Source: Thioalkalivibrio sulfidiphilus
Lineage (GTDB): Bacteria; Pseudomonadota; Gammaproteobacteria; Ectothiorhodospirales; Ectothiorhodospiraceae
Length of the DNA: 41,422 bases
Direction: 5' to 3'
Assembly: GCF_000377945.1 (NCBI RefSeq)
Contig: NZ_KB898947.1
Location: 1 to 41,422 of the forward strand
Positions 1,399 through 20,550 of this stretch are shown here, piece by piece. A program made the position numbers and the translations under genes. The notes under the pieces are model-generated. The model was not told the DNA's origin. It saw only the letters and a list, made by a program, of their open reading frames with translations, and did not search any database. How positions within the stretch are numbered: position 1 is the stretch's first letter; every line of letters starts with the position of its first letter.

Positions 1399-3587
1399 GT
1401 CTCGTGGATCTCGAAATCGTTGACCGGGGCCAGGTACAGGGGTGCCACGGGACTCTCCAGGCTGCGCATCAGGCCCGTGACGGCCCGGAAATCCGCCTGC
1501 CGGGTGCGGGTGACCAGCTGTCCCTGGATGCTCACCCCCTCGGGCAGGGGGTGGAAGCCGATGATCCGATGGGGCCCGTCCTCGTCCAGAGGCAGGGAGA
1601 TGAGCCCGAGCTCACTTTGGCCATCCTCACCCACCCGGAAGGTCACGGCGCTCCAGTGATCCAGCGCCGGTTCGCGCAGGGACTGGCCATGGATCAGCCG
1701 ATGCAGTCGGTCCAGGGGGGTGCGGGATTGTTCGCTCAGGCTGTGAAGCTGCCACTGCAGGTCAGAACCGTACAGGAACAGCTTCAGGGCATCCCGCTCC
1801 TGACTGCTGCTCCAGTGGAATTCGCAACCGATGGCCTTGGTATAGCCACCCTCCGGGCTCTCGGAGGCGATCCGTGAGGCGACCCGAGCGCGAAACGACT
1901 GCCTGCCGCTGGGCAGGGCGATCTCGCCGCTGATCCAGCGGCCCGGTTCCAGGCTCTCGGGCAGTGGACCGTAGAGGCGGCAGCCGGCGGAGGAGATGTC
2001 GTCCACGGTGGCCAGCAGTTCCTCCCCGCTGTCCGTGCTGATGCGCGCGGGCAGAGGGATGGGGAAGCGGTACTCGTTGCGGCGCTGGTCTGCGCGGTTC
2101 AGCGTGAACAGCACCACCGACAGGGCGAGCGCCATGTTCAGGCTGGCCCAGATCAGGTTGACGACCGCAGCCTCCAGGGGCAGGTGATTGTCCAGGACCA
2201 TGAACAGGGCCAGGCCCAGGGGGAGGGCGATGCCGTTGAGCGCCAGGATCAGGATCTGGGGGGTGAGGAAGTGGTAGGTCTCCCGGGCCCGGGACAGGCC
2301 CTTGGGGGTCACCGAGAAGCGCAGGTGGCGCTTGAACAGGGCGAGTGTCGCCCAGGCGAAGGCGGCGAAGCGGCCCATGTTGTACTGCTCGATGAGCACG
2401 GTGCGTCCATAGCCCCGGCCCAGTTCCTCGAACAGCCAGAAGGACAGCAGGTAGTAGGGGATGAAGCGCACGAAGAACTCCATCCCCAGGGCGTTGATGG
2501 GCATCACACCGGTGAGCAGCACCACTGCAGGGGCCAGGTAGAAGATGGCCTTCTGCCAGCCGTCGAAATAGGTGGACATGGAGGCGAAGTAATTGAGCCG
2601 CTGGGCCAGCGTCAGCCCCCGGGCGGTGAGCACCCCTTCCTGGCGCCAGACCTGCATGGCCCCCTGGCCCCAGCGGATGCGCTGCTTGAGGAAGGGCACC
2701 ACGTTGGAGGGTGCCACACCGAAGGCCAGCGACTCCGGGTGATACACGGAGCGGTAGCCCAGCTTGTGCAGGCGGATGGAGGTGTGCAGGTCCTCGGTGA
2801 CCGTCTCGGTGGCGAAGCCGCCGATGCGATCCAGCGCCTCCCGGCGCACCACGGCGCAGCTGCCGCAGAAGAAGGCCGCGTTCCAGGTGTCCTTGCCCCG
2901 CTGGATCACCCGGAAGAACAGGGACTGCTCGGTCCACACGGAGCGACGCCCGGGCAGCCAGCGGTGCTGGTAGGAGTCCAGGTTGAAGAAGTCCTGGGGG
3001 GTCTGCACGAAGGCCACCTTCTCGTCGGCGGAGAAGTAGCCCAGGGTACGTTCCAGGAAATGGCGCTGGGGGGCGTGGTCGGCGTCGAACACGGCGATGA
3101 ACTCCGCATCCGTATGGCCCAGGGCGTGGTTGAGGTTGCCTGCCTTGGCATGCAGGTTGTCGCCGCGCGCCAGGTAGCGGGCGCCCAGCTCCGCCGCCAG
3201 CGCCCGCATGGCGGGTCGGTTACCGTCGTCCAGCAGCCAGGTCTCGTGGGGGTAGTCCATGTGCAGGGCGGCGATGAGGGTGTTGCGCACCAGGTCTACG
3301 GACTCGTTGTAGGTGGGAATGAACACCGCCACCTTGAGCCCCTCGGGCACCGGCGGGCTCACCCGGCACTTCAGGCGCCAGGTCATGAAGATGTGCAGCA
3401 GGGTGGCGGTGAAACCGAACAGCTCCGCGCCGTAGAGCAGCAGGGAGAAGGTCAGGGCATCGGGATTCAGGGTGCCGGCGCGCCAGCTCAGGTACCAGAC
3501 GGCCACGCCGATGAAGGCGAACACCAGCAGCTTGCGCGCCGGGCTCAGCTCTTCGTAGTCACGACGGGTGACCTGGGGTTGGTTCAC
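1344..3587 (-). CDS. bcsA: Cellulose synthase catalytic subunit (UDP-forming), BcsA family with PilZ domain
   Basis: A processive GT2 glycosyltransferase of about 747 residues in the inner membrane, polymerising glucose from UDP-glucose. Numbered from the GTG at 3587, it shows DDG (120-122), DAD (168-170), TED (264-266) and QRIRW (302-306), so the catalytic set is complete. Transmembrane segments flank this core. A PilZ domain follows with RxxxR (503-507) and DxSxxG (530-535), indicating c-di-GMP activation. About 130 extra residues lie after PilZ with no function I recognise. The GTG start has GGAAG 7 nt upstream; a TTG at 3605 lacks such a site. Only bcsS follows; no bcsB, bcsC or bcsZ is adjacent, which is unusual because BcsB normally supports BcsA. 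Confidence 0.92.
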   Translation of the reverse strand: MNQPQVTRRDYEELSPARKLLVFAFIGVAVWYLSWRAGTLNPDALTFSLLLYGAELFGFTATLLHIFMTWRLKCRVSPPVPEGLKVAVFIPTYNESVDLVRNTLIAALHMDYPHETWLLDDGNRPAMRALAAELGARYLARGDNLHAKAGNLNHALGHTDAEFIAVFDADHAPQRHFLERTLGYFSADEKVAFVQTPQDFFNLDSYQHRWLPGRRSVWTEQSLFFRVIQRGKDTWNAAFFCGSCAVVRREALDRIGGFATETVTEDLHTSIRLHKLGYRSVYHPESLAFGVAPSNVVPFLKQRIRWGQGAMQVWRQEGVLTARGLTLAQRLNYFASMSTYFDGWQKAIFYLAPAVVLLTGVMPINALGMEFFVRFIPYYLLSFWLFEELGRGYGRTVLIEQYNMGRFAAFAWATLALFKRHLRFSVTPKGLSRARETYHFLTPQILILALNGIALPLGLALFMVLDNHLPLEAAVVNLIWASLNMALALSVVLFTLNRADQRRNEYRFPIPLPARISTDSGEELLATVDDISSAGCRLYGPLPESLEPGRWISGEIALPSGRQSFRARVASRIASESPEGGYTKAIGCEFHWSSSQERDALKLFLYGSDLQWQLHSLSEQSRTPLDRLHRLIHGQSLREPALDHWSAVTFRVGEDGQSELGLISLPLDEDGPHRIIGFHPLPEGVSIQGQLVTRTRQADFRAVTGLMRSLESPVAPLYLAPVNDFEIHETWLHTEPAPVASAVSVAA

Positions 3588-3708
3588 GATGGTGCTTCCG
3601 GGCAATGGGCGAGACGCCGTTTCGGTATCGCCCGGCGCCCGGTGAGTGCCGGTGCCGCGCGGTCTGGTGAAGGCCCCAATTCGGGGATCATCACTCAGAT
3701 GGCATTAT

Positions 3709-3724
3709 TGTGATGAATATCACA
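3709..3724. promoter_or_regulatory. CRP/FNR-family binding site, perfect CRP consensus
   Basis: The sequence TGTGA-N6-TCACA is an exact match to the CRP/Vfr half-sites. It lies about 120-135 nt upstream of the bcsA start, in the gap between bcsA (leftward) and the 3' end of mutS, so bcsA is the only gene it can sit upstream of. No convincing -35/-10 pair was identified. The assigned target is inferred. Confidence 0.6.
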
Positions 3725-3796
3725 TAATTGTGCAATGCGACACTTTTTACGCTCGTCAAAAAAAATGACCGTTGGTCAGAAAGATAGGGAAACTTT

Positions 3797-3903
3797 GAAG
3801 TGTAGATTGGGAAGTTGGGATGATAGTGGGAAGTGGGAAGTGGGAAGTGGGAAGTGGGAAGTCAAGGACTTCAATTCCCACTTCCCAATTCACCCTTCTC
3901 ACT
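3797..3903. repeat. Heptamer tandem repeat (GTGGGAA x5) with inverted arm
   Basis: Five uninterrupted GTGGGAA units occupy 3826-3860, preceded by diverged copies from about 3797. A reverse-complement arm (TTCCCACTTCCCAATTCAC) lies near 3874-3893. The element runs into the mutS stop codon at 3899-3901. It is the larger relative of the 578-656 element and could form a long RNA hairpin at the mutS 3' end. Confidence 0.75.
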
Positions 3904-6490
3904 TTGCCAATAGCGCCCTGAGCCGGTACACGACCTCCAGCGCCTCCCGGGGCGAAAGGCTGTCCGGGTCCAGGTCCTCGACCGCCTCGCGAAGGGCCTC
4001 GAGGGACGGATCCGGGGCGGGCGAGGGTGGCGGGGCGGGGGCGAACAGGCCCAACTGGGGGTCGGCAGCGCTGGCGGCCAGGTTCTGGCGTTCCAGCTCC
4101 GCCAGACGCTGGCGGGCCTTTTTGATCACCGCCGCGGGCACGCCGGCCAGGGCCGCCACGTGCAGGCCGTAGCTCTGGTTGGCGGGGCCTTCCTTGACCG
4201 CGTGCAGGAACACGATGCGGTTGCCGTGTTCCACGGCGTCGATGTGCACGTTGGCGATGGCCTCGTGCTGCTCGGCCAGCGCGGTCAGCTCGAAGTAGTG
4301 GGTGGCGAACAGGGTGAAGGCCCGGTTGTGCCGGGCCAGGTGCTCGGCGCAGGCCCAGGCGAGCGACAGGCCGTCGAAGGTGGAGGTGCCCCGGCCGATC
4401 TCGTCCATGAGCACCAGGCTGTGTTCGCTGGCGTTGTTGAGGATGTTGGCCGCCTCAGTCATCTCCACCATGAAGGTGGAACGCCCGGAGGCCAGGTCGT
4501 CCGAGGCGCCGATGCGGGTGAAGATGCGGTCCACGGGGCCGAGCAACGCCCGGCGCGCGGGCACGAACGCGCCCAGGTGGGCCATGAGCACGATCAGCGC
4601 CGTCTGGCGCATGTAGGTGGACTTGCCGCCCATGTTGGGACCGGTGATCACCAGCATGCGGCGGGTGTCCGTGAGCTCGACGCCGTTGGCCACGAAGGGC
4701 TCGTCCAGTACCTGCTCCACCACCGGGTGGCGGCCGTCCTCGATGAAGATGCCGGGGGTGTCGGTGAGTTCCGGGCGGCTATAGCCCAGGGTCTCGGCGC
4801 GCTCGGCGAAGCAGGCCAGCACGTCCAGTTCCGCCAGGGCCTCGGCCGTGCGCTGCAGGGCAGGCAGGGGTTCCAGCAGGGCCTCGAGCAGGGCCTCGTA
4901 GAGGGCCTTCTCCCGGGCCAGCGCCCGCTCCCGGGCGGAGAGCACCTTGTCCTCGAAGGCCTTGAGTTCCGGGGTGATGAAGCGCTCGGCGCCCTTGAGC
5001 GTCTGGCGCCGGGTGTAGTCGTCCGGGGCCTTCTCCGCCTGGGCGCGGCTGATCTCGATGTAGTAGCCATGCACCCGGTTGTAGGCCACTTTAAGCGTGT
5101 GGATGCCGGTGCGTTCTCGCTCCCGGGCCTCCAGGTCCACCAGGAACTGGTCGGCGTTCTCGGACAGGGCGCGCAGTTCGTCCAGCTCCGGGTCGTAGCC
5201 GGGGGCGATGACGCCGCCGTCGCGGATCAGTACCGGGGGCTGTTCGATGACCGCACGGGTGAGCAGGTCCACCACGGCCGGGTGTTCGCCGGCGCTCCCG
5301 GCGAGCTGCTCAAGCCGCGGCGCGGGGGTCCCGGCCAGCAGCCCGCGGATCTCCGGCAGCACGGCCAGGGAGTCCCGCAGGGTCACCAGGTCCCGGGGCC
5401 GTGCGGAGCCCAGGGCCACCCGGGAGAGGATGCGCTCCATATCCCCGATGCGCCGCAGCCGCTCGTGCAGCGCCCGGTAGCCGCGGCCCTCCAGCAGTTC
5501 TGCCACCGCGCCCAGACGCGCCTCCAGGTCCTGCCGGCGGCGCAGGGGCTGGTGGATCCAGCGGGACAGCAGGCGGCTGCCCATGGCGGTGGCGGTCTCA
5601 TCCAGCACCGCGGCCAGGGTATGTTCCCGGCCGCCGGCCAGGTTCTGGGTCAGCTCCAGGTTCCGGCGGGTGGCGGCGTCCAGGATGATGCCGTCCTCCC
5701 GGCGTTCCACCCCCAGGCCGTTGATGTGGGGCAGGGCGCTCATCTGGGTGTCCTGCACGTACTGCAGCAGGGCCCCGGCGGCGCCGGAGGCGAGCGCCAG
5801 GCCCTCGCAGCCGAAGCCGGCCAGGTCCCGGGTGCCGAAGTGCCGGGTGAGCAGGATGCGGGCGGCCTCGGCCTCGAAGTGCCACACCGCTCGCAGGCGC
5901 GTGCCCGGGCGCTTGGTCCCGGGCAGGGATTGGCCCTCGGGCAGCAGCAGCTCCGCCGGGTTCAAGCGCTCCAGTTCGCCGGTCAGGGCCTCGACACCTT
6001 CCACCTCCAGGACCCGGAAGCGCCCGGTGCTCACGTCCAGGGCGGCGATGCCGAAGCGGTTCTCCCGGCCGCACACCGCCACCAGCAGGTTCTCCCGGCG
6101 TTCCTCCAGCAGGGCCTCTTCCGTGACCGTGCCGGGGGTGACGATGCGTACCACCTTGCGTTCCACGGGGCCCTTGCTGGTGGCTGGGTCGCCGATCTGC
6201 TCGCAGATGGCCACCGACTCTCCCAGGCGGATCAGGCGTCCCAGGTAACTCTCCACCGCGTGCACCGGCACCCCGGCCATGGGGATGGGTTCGCCGGCGG
6301 ACTGGCCGCGCTTGGTCAGGGTGATGTCCAGCAGGCGCGCGGCGCGGATCGCGTCATCGTAGAACAGCTCGTAGAAGTCGCCCATGCGGTAGAACACCAG
6401 GATGTCCGGGTGCTGCGCCTTGATGCCCAGGTACTGCTGCATCATGGGGGTGTGCTGGGGGCTGGCGGTGGCGGTGGGGTGGCTTGACAT
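3899..6490 (-). CDS. mutS: DNA mismatch repair ATPase MutS
   Basis: An 863-residue mismatch-recognition ATPase acting with MutL in methyl- or nick-directed repair. The mismatch-binding Phe-X-Glu motif is at 39-41 within GDFYELF. Connector, lever and clamp regions follow. The ATPase carries Walker [10 protein letters not shown] (617-625), DEIGRGTS (696-703) and the ATHYFE motif (729-734). A QLGLF peptide at 812-816 matches the beta-clamp binding motif seen in MutS tails. Length is close to that of E. coli MutS (853). It is encoded alone; the heptamer repeat lies at its 3' end. The ATG at 6490 gives the standard N-terminus. Confidence 0.98.
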
Positions 6491-6721
6491 GGGCGGGAAT
6501 TCTACATGACCTGACCAGGATCAAGGACAACTCGAATTTCCGACCGCGGGGCTGGTGGGATTCGAGTAAGAGGCTATATTCAGCACATATGAAGGGCACT
6601 TTCGTGGTTACTCGGGATCTTCGGCGCACAGCGTCGATGCAGTGCTGTCAGCCTGCCTCAGGTCTCGAGTTGGCATGATGTTTTTCCGCCATCCTGCTGA
6701 TTTCATGGTTGTTTGATTCTC

Positions 6722-6751
6722 GCGGCGCCGCCACATGGCGCGCCGCTTTTT
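6722..6751 (+). terminator. Rho-independent terminator-like hairpin in the leader of the next gene
   Basis: GCGGCGC (6722-6728) pairs with GCGCCGC (6740-6746) and is followed by TTTTT (6747-6751). It lies 37 nt upstream of the ATG at 6789 on the same strand. No plus-strand gene lies between here and the divergent mutS start, so it would either attenuate the 6789 gene or end a short RNA begun after about 6570. The rest of 6491-6721 shows no gene; a TATATT at 6573-6578 is at best a weak -10 without a matching -35. Confidence 0.5.
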
Positions 6752-6788
6752 CGTGTGCTGTTTCGCAAACCTTGAAGGAGGTGACCGC

Positions 6789-7223
6789 ATGACCACATGG
6801 GTGATTGTCGCAGACGCCAGCCGCGCCCGGATCTTCAGCGCCGAGAAGTCCTTCAGTGCCCTGCAGGAGGTGGAAGACATCAGCCATCCCGAGGGGCGTC
6901 TCCACGACCAGGATCTCAACTCCGATCGACCGGGGCGCGCCTTCGACAGTACTGGCGACGGCCGTCATGCCATGGGCAAGGAGGTTCCGCCCAAGAAGCA
7001 GGAGGCAGTGCGTTTTGCCAAGGTGCTGTGCGACCGTCTCAACAACGCCCGGGCCACGGGCGTGTTCGAGAAGCTCTACATCGTGGCCGCTCCCGCCTTC
7101 CTGGGCACCATGCGCCAGTGCATGAACAGCGTGACCCAGAAGTCCATCGTCGGCGAACTGGACAAGAACCTCACGACCCACGACGTGGACACCATTCGCA
7201 GCCATCTGCCCGACTTCCTCTGA
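6789..7223 (+). CDS. Host-attachment family protein (Host_attach, COG5622 type)
   Basis: A 144-residue soluble protein resembling the family named for a protein required for attachment to host cells. That family is thought to be related to bacterial eRF1-like (baeRF) domains. The N-terminus TTWVIVADASRARIF and the later KLYIVAAPAFLG segment are the characteristic family blocks. Biochemical function is unknown. The ATG at 6789 has an ideal AAGGAGGT Shine-Dalgarno sequence; the in-frame ATG at 6735 would start inside the upstream terminator-like hairpin region and was not chosen. It appears monocistronic, with a possible attenuator in its leader. Confidence 0.82.
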   Translation: MTTWVIVADASRARIFSAEKSFSALQEVEDISHPEGRLHDQDLNSDRPGRAFDSTGDGRHAMGKEVPPKKQEAVRFAKVLCDRLNNARATGVFEKLYIVAAPAFLGTMRQCMNSVTQKSIVGELDKNLTTHDVDTIRSHLPDFL

Positions 7224-14544: not shown

Positions 14545-14739
14545 ATGTTGATTCTGACCCGCCGTGTCGGCGAAACCCTGATGATCGGAGACCAGGTCTC
14601 CGTGACTGTGCTGGGCGTGAAGGGCAACCAGGTGCGCATCGGCATCAATGCCCCCAAGGATGTGGCCGTGCATCGTGAAGAGATCTACGAGCGCATCAAG
14701 AACGAGGGTGACGAAGGCCAGGCCACCGGCGGTAACTGA
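14545..14739 (+). CDS. csrA: Carbon storage regulator CsrA/RsmA
   Basis: A 64-residue homodimeric RNA-binding protein that binds GGA motifs in mRNA leaders and sRNA decoys to control metabolism, biofilm and motility. The near-invariant N-terminus [16 protein letters not shown] and the RNA-contact region [10 protein letters not shown] with Arg44 are intact. The ATG at 14545 is chosen because it gives exactly the family N-terminus and has GGAG 8 nt upstream. The lysC-csrA-tRNA-Ser order is conserved. Candidate GGA-loop RNA modules at 20.3 kb would be natural partners. Confidence 0.97.
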
Positions 14740-14829: not shown

Positions 14830-14920
14830 GGAGAGATGGCCGAGTGGTCGAAGGCGCTCCCCTGCTAAGGGAGTATGGGTCAAAAGCCCATCGAGGGTTC
14901 GAATCCCTCTCTCTCCGCCA
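14830..14920 (+). tRNA. tRNA-Ser(GCU)
   Basis: A 91-nt class II tRNA with encoded CCA. The 7-bp acceptor stem GGAGAGA/TCTCTCC closes. The anticodon loop CTGCTAA (14862-14868) gives anticodon GCU at 14864-14866, reading AGC/AGU. A long variable arm follows and the T-arm contains GGTTCGAATCC. tRNA-Ser downstream of csrA is the standard gammaproteobacterial arrangement. tRNA-Ser 3' ends are common integration targets, but I saw no second copy of this 3' end in the window. Confidence 0.98.
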
Positions 14921-20085: not shown

Positions 20086-20114
20086 TTGACGCCCGGGCCA
20101 CGCCGCCCCATAAT
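20086..20114 (+). promoter_or_regulatory. Sigma-70 promoter for tRNA-Arg
   Basis: TTGACG (20086-20091), 17-nt spacer and CATAAT (20109-20114), followed by the GC-rich discriminator GCGCCGC. The tRNA begins 15 nt downstream. Bases 19884-20085 contain no gene. Confidence 0.75.
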
Positions 20115-20128
20115 GCGCCGCTTTGAAA

Positions 20129-20205
20129 GCGCCCGTAGCTCAGTTGGATAGAGTACCTGGCTACGAACCAGGTGGTCGGAGGTTCGAATCCTTCCGGGCG
20201 CGCCA
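20129..20205 (+). tRNA. tRNA-Arg(ACG)
   Basis: A 77-nt tRNA with encoded CCA. Acceptor stem GCGCCCG/CGGGCGC, anticodon stem CCTGG/CCAGG, loop CTACGAA with anticodon ACG at 20163-20165 (modified to ICG in bacteria, decoding CGU/CGC/CGA). T-arm GGAGGTTCGAATCCTTC. Its 3' half is partly duplicated 265 nt downstream (20452-20466). Confidence 0.98.
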
Positions 20206-20255
20206 GACAAACAAAAAGGCCCCGTCCATTGGACGGGGCCTTTTTGTTTGTCTGG
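20203..20255 (+). terminator. Long perfect-palindrome terminator after tRNA-Arg
   Basis: The arms 20203-20227 and 20231-20255 are perfectly complementary over 25 nt around an ATT loop. The GC core GGCCCCGTCC/GGACGGGGCC is flanked by A5 and T5, giving a bidirectional intrinsic terminator. The outer part CCAGACAAAC/GTTTGTCTGG includes the CCA of the tRNA, so the 3' end of the precursor would be sequestered. Confidence 0.9.
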
Positions 20256-20293
20256 CGGGCTGGGAGGCCCTGGTTCGAACCTCAGGTTCGATT

Positions 20294-20446
20294 AATCCGG
20301 CAGGACAGCCGGATTGACGGTGCCTGCAAGGCACCGCCCCGCAGGGGTGAGGGCCATGGAAGGCCCGAATCATAAGGCTGGCAGGACAGCCAGTCTGACA
20401 TTGCGCGCCAGCGCGATGCCCCTCGGGTGAGGGCCATGGAAGGCCC
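20294..20446 (+). ncRNA. Candidate structured RNA: two 80-nt modules with GGA-loop hairpins (Csr/Rsm decoy-like)
   Basis: Two tandem modules each contain three hairpins. Module 1: stem AATCCGGC/GCCGGATT with loop AGGACA (20294-20315); stem CGGTGCC/GGCACCG (20318-20336); stem GGGCC/GGCCC with loop ATGGAA (20351-20366). Module 2: stem CTGGC/GCCAG with loop AGGACA (20378-20393); stem CATTGCGC/GCGCGATG (20399-20418); stem GGGCC/GGCCC with loop ATGGAA (20431-20446). The loops are identical between modules while the first and second stems differ but still pair, which indicates selection for structure. GGA in hexaloops is the CsrA-binding signature of CsrB/RsmZ RNAs. No convincing promoter was seen, so it could be a structured dispersed repeat instead. 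Confidence 0.5.
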
Positions 20447-20451
20447 GAATC

Positions 20452-20466
20452 AATCCTTCCGGGCGC
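20452..20466 (+). repeat. Direct repeat of the tRNA-Arg 3' end (att-like)
   Basis: AATCCTTCCGGGCGC is an exact copy of 20187-20201 inside tRNA-Arg. The following bases to about 20525 also resemble the tRNA terminator region in degraded form (GGACGGGGCC and GTTTGCCTGGC). The unit spacing is 265 nt and encloses the structured modules. This fits either an att-type duplication left by integration at the tRNA or a local duplication. Confidence 0.6.
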
Positions 20467-20550
20467 ACGATGCCAAGGCCGTCATTTTGTTTACCAGGAC
20501 GGGGCCATTGACTTGTTTGCCTGGCTCCCTCGTTCGGCCCGGGGTCAGGC

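Follow-up and report, generated by a model that had tools for sequence, protein, structure and literature searches.

A tRNA-linked repeat with two GGA-hairpin modules behind tRNA-Arg(ACG) in Thioalkalivibrio sulfidiphilus, a proposed weak CsrA decoy

Past the terminator of the tRNA-Arg(ACG) gene of Thioalkalivibrio sulfidiphilus lie two similar stretches that present the same GGA-bearing loops on differing stems, which raises the question of what kind of element this is and whether its RNA serves CsrA. A preliminary description of the window (the whole 41,422-nucleotide stretch of contig NZ_KB898947.1 analysed here) had read it as an undescribed Csr decoy RNA or the scaffold of a structured repeat family. 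The repeat family stands, with 31 own-genome matches to our covariance model R1, and the decoy stands in part, through kinship to the E. coli RNA RrB and through the loop rule for Csr/Rsm sites. "Undescribed", in turn, has to be withdrawn: the kind is known, namely that of the tRNA-linked repeats (TLRs) of RrB type. E. coli TLRs were first described in 1978 and, as recounted in PMC8144298, have had no agreed function since; CsrA binding of three of them dates from 2021 (PMC8144298). The window element almost certainly belongs to this type.

The tRNA-Arg(ACG) locus and its two modules

The element extends further than the preliminary description had it, with an inverted copy of part of the tRNA on its left and a direct 15-nt copy on its right (Table 1). 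Since GGTTCGA stands to the left of the modules and AATCCTTCCGGGCGC to their right, the tRNA 3' end is present a second time, split at the T loop by the modules; the GGTTCGA junction is the same or nearly the same in relatives. As in TLRs, the modules follow the tRNA gene on the same strand (gene end 20205, module start 20293) and a copied 3' end closes the element, although its 15 identical nucleotides fall below the 18-19 bp by which an E. coli TLR copies the 3' end of its upstream RNA gene (PMC8144298). The arms of the terminator-like hairpin T1, 36 nt each, are 92% complementary, and the region 20190-20300 folds with a z-score of -11.9. This hairpin continues unbroken into the tRNA 3' CCA end, with a 27-bp stem in the predicted fold; as the stem merges with the CCA end, T1 could compete with tRNA maturation or form an RNase III site. 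At the decayed terminator copy past the modules the T run is gone, and termination there is doubtful.

Table 1. Features of the tRNA-Arg(ACG) locus and of csrA in the window
Feature	Position	Strand	Basis and remarks
csrA, presumed partner	14545-14739	+	PF02599 match 14545-14700, E 7e-26; ATG 14545, stop 14737-14739
Promoter-like TTGACG-17-CATAAT	20086-20114	+	Directly 5' of tRNA-Arg(ACG); 10/12 consensus positions; consensus match only
tRNA-Arg(ACG), source of the duplicated 3' end	20129-20205	+	ARAGORN; Rfam RF00005, 68.4 bits
T1, long terminator-like hairpin with T run, overlapping the tRNA 3' end	20193-20265	+	Arms 20193-20228 and 20230-20265
tRNA 3' half (acceptor and T arm) copied in inverted orientation, diverged	~20254-20284	+	Score 20 against a shuffle maximum of 18, a narrow pass
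GGTTCGA, direct copy of the T-arm 5' half, where the tRNA copy is broken off	20285-20291	+	Sequence
Module 1	20293-20372	+	R1 79.1 bits, E 4e-14 (sequence in R1 training set); predicted fold
Hairpins of module 1	SL1 20293-20316, SL2 20318-20336, SL3 20337-20347, SL4 20351-20366	+	Predicted fold
Module 2	20374-20452	+	R1 57.4 bits, E 6.8e-10 (sequence in R1 training set); predicted fold
Hairpins of module 2	SL1 20374-20397, SL2 20399-20418, SL3 20419-20427, SL4 20431-20446	+	Predicted fold
15-nt direct copy of the tRNA-Arg 3' end	20452-20466	+	Exact, identical to 20187-20201
Decayed terminator copy, possible former T2	20467-20526	+	GGACGGGGCC and TTGTTTGCCTGG resemble the right half of T1

Both modules share a four-hairpin fold (SL1 to SL4) in which the SL1 and SL4 loops contain GGA; module 2 has a weak SL3 that its predicted fold does not form. 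The preliminary description was accurate as to the pairing. At a spacing of 80-81 nt the modules have exactly the same loops, AGGACA in SL1 (20302-20307 and 20383-20388) and ATGGAA in SL4 (20356-20361 and 20436-20441, closed by C-G), and the letters of the first stems (TAATCCGGC/GCCGGATTG versus AGGCTGGC/GCCAGTCT) and of the middle stems (CGGTGCC/GGCACCG versus CATTGCGC/GCGCGATG) differ with pairing kept. The stretch 20270-20466 folds with a z-score of -6.3 and the single modules with -4.5 and -3.4, and in each case none of 200 shuffles was equally stable. Since the two modules have one and the same SL4 stem, its covariation is not visible from the window alone; it does covary across the wider family.

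The high-affinity Csr/Rsm site is a hexaloop ANGGAX with a stem immediately beneath it (its closing pair in RsmZ is C-G), and dropping N, adding bases or losing the stem cuts affinity 10 to 1000-fold (PMC4005645). SL4, with C-AUGGAA-G, fits the A(N)GGAX rule in full including the C-G closure, and in SL1, with C-AGGACA-G, N is missing and one base is added. Following this rule, each window module is predicted to offer one strong site (SL4) and one weaker site (SL1). The two modules together hold four GGA hairpin loops, where CsrB has about 18 sites and CsrC nine (PMC8144298). In a second genome of the genus (G004), the 103 bases corresponding to 20270-20372 behind the same tRNA-Arg(ACG) differ solely at 20357 and 20361. 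These are N and X of ANGGAX in SL4, two positions that vary and are looped out in Csr/Rsm sites (PMC4005645).

Conservation, spread and kinship of the module

A script demanding the SL3/SL4 pattern and an upstream GGA hairpin passed 124 modules, with 14 overlapping copies skipped; 48 were kept after removal of near-identical ones, and window module 2 was added by hand to give 49 sequences. SL4 is 99.0% paired among them, its outer pair being U-A in 27 and C-G in 18, and its inner pairs swap between G-C and C-G. The search pattern fixed the basal G and C letters and the C beneath the SL4 loop and left the outer pair of SL4 and three stem pairs free, so that for these pairs the test of covariation is a fair one; for SL1 the script itself required pairing, and the SL3 letters were set by the pattern. 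SL2 is 67.7% paired and poorly aligned, and one clearly misaligned row (L145) was retained. The motif YGA...GAR around SL4 may be read as two G-A mismatches closed by the covarying pair.

The covariance model R1, built from this alignment, collected 48 matches, 42 of them distinct, from 22 of 30 own-genome loci and from eight stretches of own and other genomes. The alignment of the 42, which was fitted to the structure and is therefore biased towards it, has 95.3% of its cells paired and double changes at 20 of 25 pairs (15.6 in shuffles). Covariation reached 0.571, against at most 0.111 (alignment A1) and 0.072 (R1-match alignment) with slid partners. Eight own-genome loci stand outside the R1-match alignment: five overlap neighbours, and for the other three (L174, L184 and L191), which also show the fold with GGA in the SL1 and SL4 loops, there was no good reason for omission.

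GGA was also examined where the search did not impose it. With GGA not required of SL1, 91 of 112 distinct modules have a perfect upstream hairpin, and 81 of these 91 carry a GGA loop; hairpins of random windows do so in 35 of 558 cases. Some of the ten exceptions bear a GGA hairpin beside the better-scoring one, and others (L063, L159) do not. When the SL4 loop was left free in a strict pattern run over 276 genomes, 7 of which matched, 14 of the 15 matches had GGA. Among the 42 matches of R1, a model itself trained on GGA, the triplet is found in SL1 of 41 and in SL4 of 40, with SL4 reading C-ANGGAX-G in 24 and C-AGGAX-G in 11.

The preliminary description had proposed a covariance-model search of related genomes. 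In the own genome R1 has 31 matches at E <= 0.1, of which 26 reach E <= 1e-3; at the latter threshold it hits 120 of 276 gammaproteobacterial genomes, and it also finds RrB. Dozens of copies scattered between unrelated genes and not expressed had been named as a point that would speak against a functional RNA, and the 31 own-genome matches go half of that way. By blastn, two modules also follow tRNA-Arg(CCG) in the own genome, one follows tRNA-Ser(GGA), and a tandem array has no tRNA near it. Module number varies within the genus, with two modules at tRNA-Arg(ACG) here versus one in G004, and 2 versus 3 at the orthologous tRNA-Arg(CCG). A search of relatives gave matches in 7 of 58 genomes (E <= 0.001), and the SL3/SL4 pattern at least 109 stretches in the named genome collection; the taxa among the matches listed include Gammaproteobacteria, Desulfovibrionaceae, Holophagaceae, other Acidobacteria and others.

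Several of these loci are of interest in themselves. At L003 (G000:C7:23917-24113), tandem 66-nt units away from tRNA are compact versions of the module that match R1. In Teredinibacter and a Cellvibrionaceae genome (L105, L087), modules stand behind tmRNA (ssrA) together with a copied tmRNA 3' end. Five Acidobacteriota loci (L069, L072, L109, L132 and L133) keep SL3 and SL4, and several of them show an upstream GGCCGAAGC-AGGA-GCG.AGGCC, in our reading a GGA tetraloop whose stem has purine mismatches inside it, for which reason the script overlooked it. Within L229 (G135, 1849-7206), a tRNA-Ser is followed by four modules, each with its own tRNA end, and the ORFs between them resemble, by eye, a higBA-type pair, AbrB-like antitoxins and a leucine-rich repeat protein, so that the locus looks like an array of cargo between TLR units.

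At gathering score, Rfam models found two tRNAs and nothing else in the window, and tRNA, tmRNA and 5S and nothing else in 18 relative loci; permissive matches in 20120-20530 fell mostly on the terminator hairpin and were taken as chance. A blastn search with three module relatives against plasmids and E. coli gave no match. A phage origin was set aside, the SL3/SL4 pattern having matched 2 stretches in a viral collection of 2.9 million contigs.

The E. coli members of the family were reached solely by the covariance model, at the place taken from the published paper. E. coli has 22 TLRs at ten loci, and those of rrnA, rrnB and rrnD, between T1 and T2, make the sRNAs RrA, RrB and RrF (Stenum et al. 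2021, PMC8144298). By pull-down and by gel shift, RrB is a CsrA ligand (KD ~100 nM), the shift is abolished by changing three GGA, and RrB also binds Hfq, more weakly than OxyS does (PMC8144298). R1 matches RrB (L255:340-412, rrnB) and the rrnD copy (L257) with 50.1 bits and E 4.8e-9 each, which establishes the kinship of the window element to a known TLR. Its matches to the E. coli arg and tyr tRNA TLRs are weak (14.2 to 19.7 bits, E 0.004 to 0.05). The MAFFT alignment A3 misaligns the E. coli TLRs and was left out of the evidence. RrB itself has no match in Rfam at gathering score. The Rfam family RtT (RF00391, gathering 45 bits) matches the E. coli tyr repeats, and in 20120-20530 it gave no match even at E <= 10.

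csrA, the putative decoy and its alternatives

The preliminary description had placed csrA near 14.5 kb, where we confirm it (Table 1); it is the one match in the own genome. tRNA-Ser(GCT) (14830-14920) comes after csrA and tRNA-Arg(ACG) 5 kb further. The order csrA - tRNA-Ser(GCT) is common to the window and to E. coli K-12 (csrA-serV-argVYZQ), and the E. coli arg tRNA genes after csrA-serV likewise carry TLRs.

In a phylum sample of 199 genomes, modules occur in 38 (E <= 1e-5) and csrA in 111; of the 38 with modules, 36 also have csrA (Fisher p 7.7e-9; module and csrA lists crossed by hand, kinship uncorrected). One family, f178, contributes 20 of the 38 and both csrA-free exceptions (G370, G392). 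Without it, modules are found in 18 of 85 genomes with csrA versus none of at most 86 others (p 1.2e-6, kinship uncorrected). The class sample has PF02599 (csrA) in 242 of 276 gammaproteobacterial genomes and gives a weak link: modules are found in 111 of these 242 and in 9 of the other 34 (p 0.024, kinship uncorrected). Its csrA-free module genomes at E <= 1e-6 are G082, G104 and G143, each in 470 to 780 contigs. A loose csrA search in eight module-bearing genomes (G370, G392, G082, G104, G143, G118, G283 and G049) found nothing over the family cut-off, and hence the idea that csrA is merely missing from the assemblies of the two phylum-sample exceptions was not confirmed. Module counts in genomes without a csrA match are 11 (G392), 13 (G143), 6 (G118), 3 (G283) and 1 (G370). 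Given eight module genomes without csrA even by loose search, the link between module and csrA is strong, not strict.

With this in mind, we regard the locus as probably a tRNA-linked repeat of the E. coli kind whose two tandem CsrA-binding modules make it a weak read-through decoy for CsrA. For the window copy we infer transcription, processing, CsrA binding and a decoy effect along the following lines. The tRNA-Arg transcript would occasionally read through T1, and the copied tRNA 3' end past the modules would let tRNA-processing nucleases free a short RNA. Each module would present a high-affinity GGA hairpin (SL4, ANGGAX on C-G) and the weaker SL1, with room for one CsrA dimer, and the released RNA would sequester a little CsrA, scaled to tRNA transcription, i.e. 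growth rate. Read-through, processing and GGA hairpins combined would thus draw off CsrA in proportion to tRNA transcription. We think with considerable confidence that the window RNA can bind CsrA; that this particular copy acts as a growth-coupled decoy we hold with slightly more doubt than trust. Counting against the decoy are the scattered copies, mostly off tRNAs, the varying module number, the decayed T2, the module genomes without detectable csrA and the modest published phenotypes of RrA, RrB and RrF (PMC8144298). The E. coli tRNA TLRs, with their weak R1 match and an SL4 without GGA, likewise count against the explanation that we prefer.

The position of the copies bears on the alternatives. 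We scored 30 tRNA- or tmRNA-linked loci (13 Ser, 11 Arg, 2 Gln, 2 tmRNA, 1 Glu and 1 Pro, the Pro gene being the upstream neighbour of an Arg gene) and found a direct copy of the 3' end in 23 and an inverted one in 18, beyond 50 shuffles; the window copy passes both tests, the inverted one narrowly (20 vs 18). Modules near tRNA lie 3' on the same strand in 21 cases, 5' on the same strand in 4 and on the opposite strand in 4. Most own-genome copies are elsewhere, 7 of 30 loci being within 600 nt of a tRNA. By crude gene calls, non-tRNA modules between co-directional genes are sense in 11 and antisense in 2 cases (p 0.022), with 14 more between convergent and 5 between divergent genes; of the remainder, 31 fall in crude ORF calls, a contig end is too close for 22, and 1 has no flanking ORF. 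Among 16 own-genome non-tRNA copies, 6 have inverted-repeat flanks beyond the 99th percentile of random positions, a count that does not bear out the impression that all such copies are nested in palindromes. At four own-genome loci (L178, L179, L180 and L193), the modules sit within a common GGGAGAGGG-type palindrome repeat, a repeat inside a repeat.

Such a distribution could also be that of a self-spreading or amplified structured repeat that favours hairpin loops, be it the T arm or palindromes, with GGA kept for movement or simply inherited and the host making no use of it. The number of own-genome and gammaproteobacterial matches, the 6 copies between inverted-repeat flanks, the tandem arrays with shifting copy number and the modules in several genomes without detectable csrA all agree with this. 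We nevertheless consider it unlikely: the other 10 of the 16 copies are not clearly nested in palindromes, no mobiliser was found (RAYT being the one tested), the crude calls show the sense skew, the loop letters obey the Csr/Rsm rule at each position, and the modules co-occur with csrA. As for RAYT, its transposase domain Y1_Tnp (PF01797) is present in 15 of 16 module-bearing genomes tested, and the many intergenic palindromic copies are reminiscent of REP/BIME sequences. REP copies flank their RAYT gene, however, and 30 RAYT loci (~3 kb each, of 67 RAYT places listed) contained no module at E <= 1; the four conserved hairpins are also unlike REP, so that mobilised REP sequences, already disfavoured, are scarcely credible here.

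Alternatively, the element could be a processing or stability device of stable-RNA operons, a second processing or termination point to which CsrA is irrelevant. It does sit past T1 and before the copied tRNA end, several relatives have a copied terminator as well, and RrB lies between T1 and T2 with an end repeat suggested by the authors as an RNase E site (PMC8144298). This would leave unexplained, however, why GGA is kept in both loops while stems change and why copies exist away from tRNA genes, and we judge it improbable. If the units were scars left by integrative elements whose attachment site is the tRNA 3' end, this would account for the duplicated tRNA 3' ends, and perhaps for the toxin-antitoxin- and AbrB-like ORFs seen by eye between the successive units of L229. 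Yet modules occur also away from tRNA genes and, in E. coli, after rRNA, and the left flank holds an inverted copy beyond a direct one, which makes such scars very improbable.

Returning to the decoy that we prefer, the element may tie CsrA activity to tRNA production. A wider and more speculative possibility, towards which we lean less than towards a growth-coupled role of the window copy, is that TLRs, RrA/RrB/RrF and the dozens of scattered repeats are one family of CsrA-docking modules, a distributed Csr decoy coupled to tRNA, tmRNA and rRNA transcription, with E. coli as a reduced case in which the rrn copies alone keep the binding loops. With the same reserve, this family might extend over Gammaproteobacteria, other proteobacterial classes, Desulfovibrionaceae and perhaps Acidobacteriota, in stable-RNA operons and at gene 3' ends. 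If true, stable-RNA synthesis would signal directly to CsrA in many bacteria, and the repeats would be a ready test set of natural CsrA ligands.

Comparison with known systems

In the PMC literature searched, "tRNA-linked repeats" led to PMC8144298 and the editorial PMC9245011 only, and neither a two-module, tRNA-linked form outside Enterobacterales that has CsrA-type loops nor the spread of the module over classes and its co-occurrence with csrA was found there. The 2021 study describes BLAST conservation within Enterobacterales only and predicts the other 19 TLRs to be unlikely CsrA binders (PMC8144298). Unlike that picture, our data suggest that outside E. coli the tRNA-linked copies often keep both GGA hairpins.

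CsrB/RsmZ-class RNAs have their own regulated promoter (GacA/UvrY). The window element resembles CsrB/CsrC and RsmX/Y/Z as an RNA presenting GGA hairpins of the A(N)GGAX type, presumably for CsrA/RsmA titration. It differs in having two GGA hairpins per module, in being a genome-wide repeat and in that no dedicated promoter was seen, the promoter-like site preceding the tRNA; the RsmY model scores 20.2 bits on the window versus a gathering score of 57.

The TLRs of E. coli tyrT/V and argVYZQ share with the window the interruption of the tRNA copy at the T loop (GGTTCGA / (A)ATCC), SL2, a CCCGAAGGG hairpin and a GAGTAATCC-type tail, and an inverted T-arm copy lies to the left of the tyr TLRs as it does in the window. 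Unlike the window modules, the E. coli tRNA TLRs examined lack GGA in the SL4 loop as well as a good SL1 stem.

The closest counterparts are RrA, RrB and RrF. The window copy differs from them in lying behind a tRNA instead of 5S rRNA, in its two tandem modules, in its decayed T2, in the SL4 loop (hexaloop AUGGAA on C-G versus AGGAC) and in its occurrence outside Enterobacterales. It shares with them the four-hairpin fold (by R1 for the rrnB and rrnD copies), GGA in the first and last hairpin loops, the read-through position past a stable-RNA terminator and the copied 3' end of the upstream RNA gene.
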